64,000 nt of DNA from Porphyrobacter sp. (GTDB taxonomy: Bacteria > Pseudomonadota > Alphaproteobacteria > Sphingomonadales > Sphingomonadaceae), in the NCBI GenBank assembly GCA_027531395.1, contig JAPZRO010000004.1, positions 310,001 to 374,000 on the forward strand, read 5' to 3'. The notes beneath the pieces are model-generated. The model worked only from the letters and a program-made list of their open reading frames with translations, was not told the origin of the DNA and made no database searches. Shown here piece after piece: positions 40,347 through 41,774 of the stretch. Position 1 is the stretch's first letter; each line of letters starts with the position of its first letter. A program made the translations under genes and the position numbers.

Positions 40347-40368
40347 GGAGGGGCTCCTTCACCCCTCC
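40347..40368. terminator. Hairpin between convergent genes
   Basis: GGAGGGG-CTCCTTCA-CCCCTCC, perfect 7-bp arms, spanning the end of the minus-strand gene. No T-run, so terminator function is uncertain. Confidence 0.35.
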
Positions 40369-40769
40369 TCCAGCAGCAGCAGCACGGCGGTGACTTCCAG
40401 CCGCTCCATCGCGCCGAAGCGGTGATCGACCTTGGTGATCGTCGCATCTGCGACCAGCTGGCCGGGCAGGGCGAATTCGTGATCGGGCAGGCGCTCGATC
40501 AGCTCCTCGCCGCCCGCGACCGCCTCGGGCCCGCAGAATTCCAGCACCACCTCGTGCCGCGTGCCCGAAAAGGTAATCGAGGCCCAGGCCTTCTCGTCAT
40601 GGGTGATCAGCGTGCCATGCCCCTGCGCCAGCGCCTTGAGCGCGGCCCGCACGCGATCGGCCGTGGTGCGACGCGGACGGAAGGCGGCAGCGAGCGATTT
40701 GACCTCGATATCATCCAGATCGGCGAAGGCGTGGGCGAAGGGATCGCGGTGGCTCTCGGTCAGCATCAT
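40359..40769 (-). CDS. Unknown protein, coupled to a small HTH-like gene
   Basis: 136 residues. Two adjacent ATGs (40769, 40766); the first is six bases after AAGGAG, which is inside the upstream gene, whose TGA overlaps it. The sequence ends with strands LEVTAVLLLLEEG and contains GHGTLITHDEKAWASITFSGTRHEVVLEF, an alpha/beta pattern of a small domain. I do not recognise it. It lies downstream of a small DNA-binding-like gene and faces away from an S24 repressor, so a regulatory link is possible. Confidence 0.68.
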   Translation of the reverse strand: MMLTESHRDPFAHAFADLDDIEVKSLAAAFRPRRTTADRVRAALKALAQGHGTLITHDEKAWASITFSGTRHEVVLEFCGPEAVAGGEELIERLPDHEFALPGQLVADATITKVDHRFGAMERLEVTAVLLLLEEG

Positions 40770-40969
40770 GCCATCTCCTTCATTTCGGCCGCTGCGCGGT
40801 CGGCATAGCCCTGCATCCAGGCGCGGGTGCGCAGCTCGGTGTCGCGGCGGGGGGTGCGCCCCATGCGCAGATCGAGCACGAAGCGCGGATCATGGGCAGC
40901 GAGCCGCCCGAACTTGGTGGCGGGCAGATTGTGCGTCCGCAGGAAGGATTCGATGGTCCGAAGCAGCAT
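40766..40969 (-). CDS. Small helix-turn-helix-like protein
   Basis: 67 residues from ATG 40969. RTIESFLRTHNLPATKFGRLAAHDPRFVLDLRMGRTPR looks like a compact helix-turn-helix: a helix, a turn at NLPATKFGR, and a second basic helix. It has no other domain. It is divergent from the S24 repressor gene, 124 bases away, and its stop overlaps the start of the next gene (coupling). Regulatory target unknown. Confidence 0.62.
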   Translation of the reverse strand: MLLRTIESFLRTHNLPATKFGRLAAHDPRFVLDLRMGRTPRRDTELRTRAWMQGYADRAAAEMKEMA

Positions 40970-41050
40970 GGTAGTGCGTCCCTGTTGGTTGCCGTGTCGA
41001 AAGTGATGCACCGGGCGACTCGCTCGATGTTCCTGAAATGTTTCACTTGA

Positions 41051-41087
41051 TTTCCTACTTGTCTAGGAAAAATCCTACGTGTAGGAT
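41051..41087 (+). promoter_or_regulatory. Leaderless promoter of the S24 repressor with two operators
   Basis: -35 TTGTCT (41059-41064), 17 bases, -10 TAGGAT (41082-41087), six bases to the ATG at 41094. Operator 1 TTTCCTA-N6-TAGGAAA (41051-41070) covers the -35; operator 2 ATCCTAC-GT-GTAGGAT (41072-41087) covers the -10. Both have perfect 7-bp arms sharing the TCCTA core, which suggests binding by the encoded protein (autorepression). A half-site ATCCTACGT also occurs inside the gene near 41336. Confidence 0.7.
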
Positions 41088-41093
41088 GTTTTC

Positions 41094-41774
41094 ATGGTTA
41101 TCGACCCGCAAAACTCCGCCCAAAGCCTCACCGGACCGCGCGCGCGGCTGCTCGCGCTGTCGCAGGACAAGGGGGTGAGCCTTGCCGCCCTGTCCGAGCT
41201 GTTGGGACGCAATCCGTCCTATCTCCAGCAATTCATTCGCAAAGGCTCGCCTCGCAAGCTGGAGGAGCAGGACCGCGCCACCCTCGCGCGGTTCTTCGGC
41301 GTGGGCGAGGAGGAGCTCCGCGAGACGAAGGAAAAATCCTACGTAAAGCCCCCTAAGCGCGAATCGGGCGCATGGGTGGAGGTTCCGCGGCTCGATCTCG
41401 GCGCGTCAGCCGGGCCGGGTGCCATGTTGCCGGGTGGGGAGGCGGCGTTCGACACCTTCCGCTTCTCGCGCCGCTGGCTCGCCGAGCAAGGCCTCGAAAG
41501 CGCGCAGCTCTCCGCCATCCGGGTCGAGGGGGATTCGATGGAGCCGCTGCTCAATGATGGCGACGAGATTCTCGTCGACCGCAGCCCCCGCCCGTTCCGC
41601 GACGGCATCCACGTGGTGCGCCTCGGCGACACCCTGATGGTCAAGCGCGTGGCGAGCGCCGGGGCAGGGCGGATCGCGCTGCTCTCGCAGAACCTCGCCT
41701 ACCCCCCGGTCGAGGTCGCGGCCGAGGAGGTCGCGATCATCGGGCGGGTTGTGTGGAAGGGGGGGAAGATTTAA
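41094..41774 (+). CDS. S24 (LexA/CI-type) self-cleaving-type repressor
   Basis: 226 residues. N-terminal helix-turn-helix at residues about 27-48 (GVSLAALSELLGRNPSYLQQFIR), a hinge with the possible cleavage bond Ala106-Gly107, and the S24 peptidase domain with Ser148 (VEGDSMEPL) and Lys184 (LMVKRV), the LexA catalytic dyad. It is not LexA itself: the DNA-binding part is XRE/CI-like. Such repressors are inactivated by RecA-stimulated cleavage. Two palindromes cover its promoter. No phage genes surround it, so it is a stand-alone regulator. Confidence 0.88.
   Translation: MVIDPQNSAQSLTGPRARLLALSQDKGVSLAALSELLGRNPSYLQQFIRKGSPRKLEEQDRATLARFFGVGEEELRETKEKSYVKPPKRESGAWVEVPRLDLGASAGPGAMLPGGEAAFDTFRFSRRWLAEQGLESAQLSAIRVEGDSMEPLLNDGDEILVDRSPRPFRDGIHVVRLGDTLMVKRVASAGAGRIALLSQNLAYPPVEVAAEEVAIIGRVVWKGGKI

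Follow-up and report, generated by a model that had tools for sequence, protein, structure and literature searches.

Organization of the Locus

The locus described here lies in a 64,000-nucleotide stretch of DNA from Porphyrobacter sp. (contig JAPZRO010000004.1, positions 310,001–374,000), referred to below as the window, and comprises a gene for an S24-family repressor and two small genes divergent from it. The repressor (41094–41774, plus strand) is a LexA/CI-like protein of 226 residues, consisting, according to its open reading frame (ORF) and Pfam, of an N-terminal helix-turn-helix (HTH), a linker, and an S24 autoprotease domain. On the minus strand, the gene of a 67-residue HTH protein, HTH81 (40766–40969), is followed by that of DUF136 (40359–40769), a tail-terminator-like protein of 136 residues and a homolog of PF11367 proteins; the stop codon of the former and the start codon of the latter overlap in the sequence ATGA. 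We consider it rather probable that these genes form a chromosomal SOS switch passed on by vertical descent, in which the repressor would act on itself and on the HTH81–DUF136 pair and would be released upon a RecA-dependent trigger. A preliminary description of this sequence had pointed out the S24 ORF with its Ser148/Lys184 dyad, the two coupled divergent genes, one of them HTH-like, and the lack of a tie to a prophage. These observations stand and the interpretation built on them is partly supported, although the intragenic operator copy, the LexA-type box, and the conservation across the family had been missed.

The neighbors of the locus are of the housekeeping type. By Pfam, it is flanked by an aldehyde dehydrogenase gene and a gene with the metallo-β-lactamase fold (metallo-hydrolase), and the ORFs located farther out read as rpmF, plsX, fabH, and ihfA, as recognized from their translations. 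No match to the HK97 capsid (PF05065) is present in the whole 3.2-Mb genome, and no conjugation genes are seen around the window's copy of the repressor. The locus is thus supported as a stand-alone chromosomal one, with no prophage or integrated element seen in this genome. Both an integrated prophage and a prophage CI repressor in place were rejected as explanations, given the lack of a capsid match and the nature of the neighbors.

The S24 Repressor

The repressor matches Peptidase_S24 (PF00717) with E 7.3e-20 and 71.2 bits, compared to a curated cut-off of 23.3; its Pfam HTH match is weak. The candidate scissile bond is Ala106–Gly107, and both of these residues, as well as Ser148 and Lys184 of the dyad, do not vary among the 17 aligned proteins, which represent several families. 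Ser105 is invariant in the same 17 proteins, yet it is replaced by Ala in some other loci (L234, L235). By its sequence, the protein belongs to the broad CI/LexA-type family of S24 repressors and is probably self-cleaving like LexA. Its identity with LexA itself was rejected, since it scores 25.2 bits against the TIGR00498 (LexA equivalog) cut-off of 110.95 and since the second of the two PF00717 matches in the genome reads as LexA from its ORF and an upstream SOS box. Among the loci fetched, the closest named relative of the S24 gene is found in Erythrobacter dokdonensis (88% identity).

Putative Operators and Promoters

Four half-sites precede the repressor gene: h1 (TCCTA, 41053), h2 (TAGGA, 41064), h3 (TCCTA, 41073), and h4 (TAGGA, 41082). 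The two dyads of the preliminary description, TTTCCTA-N6-TAGGAAA and ATCCTAC-GT-GTAGGAT, are indeed present at 41053–41068 and 41073–41086, respectively. The first of them (h1–h2), termed O1 (TCCTACTTGTCTAGGA), is positioned around a −35 region, and the second (h3–h4) lies over the predicted −10 element of the repressor promoter. Their unequal spacing had been difficult to reconcile with a single dimer. We favor another pairing, in which the putative central operator TAGGA-AAAA-TCCTA (h2–h3, 41064–41077) is the recognition unit and the earlier dyads are half-sites around it, which removes the puzzle. This pairing is favored because TAGGA-N4-TCCTA recurs elsewhere, whereas the h1–h2 and h3–h4 units do not. 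It is found inside the repressor gene and, in other lineages, ahead of O1; elsewhere in the order, outside the family, it is exact in L101 and L111 and carries one mismatch in L102, L109, and L110. Paralogs in conjugative elements also have the TAGGA/TCCTA unit, with N4 in L096 and N5 in L093 and L095.

The variation of these sites was followed in 141 loci. This set is not random: 80 of them were the best among 585 relatives, and 60 (L326–L385) were selected, in part for holding O1, to cover deeper lineages. Counts over the set are also not independent by descent. The central dyad retains at least 8 of 10 positions in 112 loci and is exact in 53. A simple h2–h3 unit is nevertheless at odds with the constancy of the adjoining region, as h1 is perfect in 127 loci and CTTGTCTAGGA is present in 121, making the spacer CTTGTC together with h1 more constant than the h2–h3 dyad. 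Only in 8 loci is h1 clearly lost, and seven named loci whose h1 is broken still retain CTTGTCTAGGA. The constancy of the spacer is consistent with two −35 elements arranged back to back, TTGTCT in the forward and TAGACA in the reverse direction, as judged by eye. The repressor promoter would then extend over 41059–41087 on the plus strand (−35 TTGTCT, 17 nucleotides, −10 TAGGAT), and the HTH81–DUF136 promoter over 41037–41065 on the minus strand (−35 TAGACA, 17 nucleotides, and a weak −10, AACATT, located inside the LexA box described below). Both were assigned by eye; a consensus scan for promoters and terminators reported none. The repressor ATG follows the −10-like TAGGAT by only about 6–7 nucleotides (41082–41094), so close that its mRNA may be leaderless. 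In relatives such as L250 and L259, the repressor starts later, behind a purine-rich stretch resembling a Shine–Dalgarno sequence, and the family may have switched between starts with and without a leader.

A dimer of the S24 protein would bind these half-sites. The 16-mer O1 has an exact copy in 250 of 397 genomes of the family and in 70 of 96 genera, with at most one copy per row of the table as read, while its reversed control occurs once in all. In the 3.2-Mb genome, TCCTA-N(2–8)-TAGGA occurs in two places, both in this 34-bp stretch, compared to 14 for the reversed control; the pattern is therefore rare rather than enriched genome-wide. A regulon defined by a genome scan for the TCCTAC core, as had been proposed, is not borne out, with the exact pattern confined to this locus. 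Within the window, TCCTACNNGTAGGA is exact only here, and with up to three mismatches it gives 12 matches against 8.5 expected, which is not significant. Two further versions of a regulon were rejected: ATCCTACNNGTAGGAT with up to three mismatches yields 15 forward matches and 15 in the control, and TAGGANNNNTCCTA with one mismatch is rarer than its control (10 and 51 occurrences, respectively, in this genome).

Operator-Like Site inside the Repressor Gene

A probable second operator, AAGGA-AAAA-TCCTA (41328–41341), lies within the S24 gene itself, where it codes for E-K-S-Y in the linker. An exact 16-nucleotide copy of the promoter operator, AGGAAAAATCCTACGT, is found there at 41329–41344. 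With a threshold of 8 of 10 dyad positions and three of four A/T in the middle, such a site is present in 76 of the 141 loci. Codon usage was compared in 81 genes (80 loci and the window), in 64 of which a script located the in-frame motif [EDGVA][KNI]SY in the linker; the 17 genes scored as misses include at least three that hold the motif (L234, L235, L259). The Ser codon of the motif is TCC in 64 of 64 genes, compared to 17.6% for the other Ser codons of the same genes. The Lys codons are AAA in 30 cases and never AAG, the Asn codons AAT in 25 cases and AAC in one, and the codon preceding the motif is AAG, GAG, or CAG in 54 genes. Other conserved Ser positions use mixed codons, with the exception of Ser148 (TCG in 67 of 80). 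The residues at the site vary (E/D, K/N/I, and Q/K/E before them) while AGGA and TCCTA persist. The strict use of TCC argues for selection on the DNA, and the site thus probably acts as an operator.

The motif might instead be preserved for the sake of the protein or of the mRNA. The peptide [ED][KNI]SY is conserved in the linker, binding to the intragenic site is a prediction from sequence, and the motif is gone in many lineages, 65 of the 141 loci falling below the threshold. Selection acting on the peptide would not explain why the residues change under a fixed AGGA/TCCTA, why the Ser codon is uniform, or why the window carries an exact copy of the promoter operator, and an Rfam search gave no match that would point to an RNA element. 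We regard this explanation as very unlikely. In three Novosphingobium-like loci that have lost the intragenic dyad (L281, L295, L298), a dyad resembling TAGGA-N4-TCCT is found upstream of O1 instead.

LexA-Type Boxes and GANTC at the Predicted Divergent Promoter

A LexA-type SOS box, GTTC-N7-GTTT, lies 24 nucleotides upstream of O1 (41029–41043). The published alphaproteobacterial LexA motif is GTTC-N7-GTTC (PMC8565304, PMC7987155). With up to one mismatch, the box is present upstream of O1 in 60 of the 141 loci (2.76 in shuffled sequences) and is exact in 45 (0.22 in shuffles); its position is −24 in 51 of the 60, overlying the predicted −10 element of the divergent promoter. An upstream S24 dyad is found in 32 loci against 0.61 expected, at −28 or −29 in 29 of them. 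Both sites occur together in L300 only, and in the other 31 loci the S24 dyad is present without a LexA box. One or the other thus occupies a fixed place over the putative divergent promoter in 91 of the 141 loci. This near-exclusive distribution suggests that one promoter is controlled by LexA in some lineages and by the S24 repressor in others, which supports control by DNA damage. The tree of the 141 proteins requires 15 changes for the LexA group, at least eight of them on well-supported branches, and 12 for the S24 group (at least five). Among 15 hand-picked GTTC-N7-GTTC stretches of this genome, seven have the box before ORFs (L114–L116, L118–L120, L125) that read as uvrA, a radical-SAM repair-like gene, imuA, an mmcB-like gene, radA, lexA, and recA, these identities having been recognized from sequence rather than by a family search. 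The responsiveness to DNA damage that had been postulated earlier is in this way upheld by inference, from the conserved cleavage residues and from the sites in the 91 loci.

A third input may come from the cell cycle. A conserved GANTC (GACTC, 41017–41021), corresponding to the methylation motif of CcrM (PMC7987155), is present 60 to 25 nucleotides upstream of O1 in 130 of the 141 loci, compared to 28.9 expected, and suggests such an input.

S24 domains can respond to cues other than RecA. The repressor could accordingly be autoregulated and yet released by another signal, with the LexA boxes adding SOS control of the pair in some lineages. The conserved GANTC would suit this explanation, as would the presence of a LexA box in just 60 of the 141 loci. 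It would leave unexplained why the Ala-Gly bond, the Ser, and the Lys are invariant in proteins of several families and why 31 loci have an S24 dyad where others have the LexA box, and we judge it rather unlikely.

HTH81 and DUF136

HTH81 is found beside the repressor in 138 of the 141 loci. Its model is a four-helix HTH with a mean predicted local distance difference test score (pLDDT) of 88.6, and the best structural matches are POU-type domains and HTH domains of phage or C proteins (top Z 8.6), an arrangement that is common. A sequence search of the PDB with HTH81 gave no match, and PADLOC recognized neither HTH81 nor DUF136.

DUF136 was detected by tblastn in 131 of the 141 loci, and a profile recovered four of nine of the others that were retested. 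Compared profile to profile (hhalign) with neighbors of the S24 gene in other families, DUF136 aligns at 94.7% and E 5.6e-8; this partner set contains five proteins, four of which match PF11367 themselves. The DUF136 model has a block with pLDDT of at least 87 from residue 31 on. Its best PDB match is a chain of a gene transfer agent (GTA) virion (6tba_4A, E 1.9e-4, template modeling score 0.50), followed by tail, neck, and tail-terminator proteins that include lambda gpU; the rank alone is not proof, since collagenase chains and others score in between. By profile and by modeled fold together, DUF136 is a tail-terminator homolog, and the earlier statement that the locus has no phage genes needs to be amended in this respect. 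PF11367 (Tail_completion_gp17) occurs near an S24 match in 9 of 24 order-level genomes (G042, G044, G047, G048, G050, G053, G055, G058, G060), which makes the pairing of repressor and tail terminator older than the family. In other families, an unnamed gene of 130–180 residues with no confident Pfam match is often located between the repressor and the tail terminator (L099, L101, L109, L110), and a Lys/Ala-rich gene is found nearby in L099, L109, L110, and L111.

Conservation across the Family

In the Sphingomonadaceae, an S24 homolog at E ≤ 0.001 is present in 239 of the 249 genomes that are at least 90% complete and in 88 of 91 genera; since paralogs and weak S24 matches are counted too, the ortholog itself is present in at most this many. 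Among 80 named loci (the best 80 of 585), HTH81 is found in all, DUF136 in 79, and the metallo-hydrolase gene in 75, with some contigs ending early. Within the genus, an ortholog with at least 71% identity is present in 31 of 37 genomes, including this one. This pattern indicates that, judged by sequence, the locus is inherited vertically with the chromosome across the family. In G032 (L103, G032:C103), the operator region is broken up by transposase-like ORFs; HTH81 and DUF136 are kept, and the repressor was not found in the draft. In G031 (C1:2811918–2813774), an insertion sets the divergent genes apart, with about 1.9 kb separating the repressor from HTH81, unlike the arrangement in relatives.

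Comparison with Known Regulators

Among described regulators, the nearest one found is RogA (CCNA_00080) of Caulobacter crescentus. RogA is an HTH and S24-domain repressor of gafYZ, whose promoter contains GGAA-N4-TTCC inverted repeats, and it does not have the catalytic cleavage residues (PMC9632790; see also PMC11150451, PMC13236601). Compared with RogA by this description, the protein of the window is likewise an alphaproteobacterial chromosomal HTH and S24-domain repressor tied to phage-like genes, and its half-site resembles GGA-N4-TCC, the RogA dyad spacing being two base pairs longer. It differs from RogA in having kept the cleavage residues, while the target of RogA is gafYZ and neither an intragenic operator nor an alternation with LexA appears in the RogA descriptions covered (PMC9632790).

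Alternatively, the repressor could be of the RogA type, its main task being to hold down activators of GTAs or prophages elsewhere, with the divergent pair only a local target. The similar half-sites would agree with this, as would the resemblance of a divergent gene product to a GTA tail protein and the presence in some genomes of the genus (e.g., G001) of an HK97 capsid gene beside a PF11367 gene. In this genome, however, the module is kept although neither an HK97 capsid nor a PF11367 match is found, the residues missing in RogA, as described, are invariant, the dyad spacing differs, and TCCTA-N(2–8)-TAGGA is confined to the repressor's own locus, looser sites lying outside that pattern. 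On balance, a RogA-type role appears improbable.

The c repressors of Mu-like phages are S24 proteins as well, with identities of 38% for DMS3 and MP22 and 33% for RcapMu, and in Mu-like c/ner regions a small divergent HTH gene stands beside the repressor, the same arrangement as found here with HTH81. Unlike the c repressors, the present one has no phage around it, has different neighbors, and is passed on with the chromosome throughout a bacterial family; its operators probably differ as well. With LexA and the alphaproteobacterial SOS regulon it shares the protease domain and a candidate SOS box beside the locus, whereas its own operator is different. SetR of SXT-type integrative and conjugative elements is an S24 repressor of conjugative elements; paralogs of the present repressor, together with a divergent HTH81, reside in regions resembling such elements, whereas the window copy is chromosomal. 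No description of this locus was found in the open-access literature, as judged from titles and the openings of abstracts. What is new is the combination of conservation throughout a family, an intragenic operator-like site under codon-level selection, the alternation of LexA and S24 sites, and a lone domesticated tail part.

Proposed Mechanism of the Switch

In undamaged cells, a dimer of the S24 protein would occupy TAGGA-N4-TCCTA and the flanking half-sites at its own promoter, as well as the second operator inside its own gene. It would thereby shut both its own promoter and the divergent HTH81–DUF136 promoter through the shared −35 region. In many lineages, an S24 operator would also cover the divergent −10 element; in Erythrobacter and several other lineages, LexA would hold this element instead. 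Upon DNA damage, activated RecA would induce self-cleavage of both LexA and the S24 repressor, and HTH81 and DUF136 would be expressed. The promoters, the cleavage, and the induction are all predicted from sequence. HTH81 would then most likely be a counter-regulator similar to Ner or Cro. DUF136 would be a domesticated tail terminator, and it is a tentative and doubtful suggestion that its target is the tails of phages or of GTA-like particles.

Several results weigh against this mechanism. Of the 141 loci, 50 lack both the LexA box and the upstream S24 dyad, and the window's own LexA box carries one mismatch. Genome-wide, exact GTTC-N7-GTTC is not enriched (56 occurrences, 58 in the control), and an independent-pairs test of the replacement between LexA and S24 sites was not significant, with too few pairs. 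PF11367 itself gives no match to DUF136 of the window above the cut-off. The distance from the promoter dyad to the intragenic site is variable (237–321), and its 22 distinct values show no helical phase (R 0.12 at 10.5 bp); DNA looping judged by helical phase is therefore not supported, and a roadblock or titration role of the intragenic site is as likely as looping. Moreover, the ortholog was not found in 6 of the 37 genomes of the genus (G002, G008, G013, G014, G023, G032), G013 and G023 being 74% and 72% complete, respectively. In G002, the ends of the S24 and DUF136 genes lie side by side, and in G008 a fragment of DUF136 is left, so the module can be lost.

Should the RecA-triggered switch be confirmed, a phage-type repressor would have been turned into a core regulator of the host, with a nearly invariant operator kept over a bacterial family. 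The gene under control would be a single domesticated tail part. Regulation would set codon choice where the operator is written in the coding sequence of its own repressor, and the alternation of LexA and S24 sites would represent a natural swap of repressors that makes the evolution of SOS control directly testable.

Relatives in Mobile Elements and Phages

Paralogs with 45–51% identity have their own divergent HTH81 (L093–L098; L100 is cut there), and in six of six an exact LexA box runs into a TCCTA or TTCTTA-TAGGA stretch. In L093, L095, L097, and L100 they adjoin ORFs that read as TraG, TraH, or a MobF-type relaxase, with none in L098. Homologs on plasmids reach 47% identity and phage repressors 38%.

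Such relatives, among them Mu-like phages (38% for DMS3), could mean that the locus is a decaying remnant of prophage or conjugative-element immunity with no present function, and the fragments in G002 and G008 would fit decay. A remnant would hardly be expected to keep O1 identical over 70 of 96 genera, a codon-level constraint on the intragenic site, and synteny over many genera, and of all the explanations considered we find this one the hardest to believe.

In IMG/VR, 13 loci with an S24 homolog at 44–47% identity were found by S24 homology, L411 and L412 being near-copies; nine of the contigs are 38–42 kb long, and in 11 loci no more than 1 kb separates the repressor from the end. All six that were read (L407/L487, L409, L411, L412/L492, L415/L495, L418/L498) carry phage-type ORFs on the side of HTH81. 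HTH81 is present in 8 of the 13, and DUF136 in none within up to 10 kb, even by profile. As judged by eye, 10 have the S24 dyad, three a LexA box, and none both. Because the contigs had been selected by their S24 gene, this count is no proof of a target preference. In G174 (L565), a prophage directly adjoins the repressor, with a phrog_1005 major head protein and, by eye, B-like and transposase-like ORFs. We can speculate that DUF136 caps or poisons the tails of induced or incoming phages, so that the locus would be a family-wide, SOS-triggered device against phages or GTAs and prophages would insert between the promoter and DUF136; this extension of the RecA-triggered switch is unlikely.

The S24/HTH81 locus is directly bordered by prophages (L565, L407–L419, L487–L499), several of which are Mu-like, and some that lie near the HTH81 start have similar phage ends (L409, L416). 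The locus is possibly a hot spot of prophage insertion, or breaking of the operon may be selected for. Directly after the HTH81 paralog of one conjugative-element-like region (L097:837–4929, G029), PADLOC recognizes a Zorya type I set consisting of ZorA, ZorB, and ZorC.

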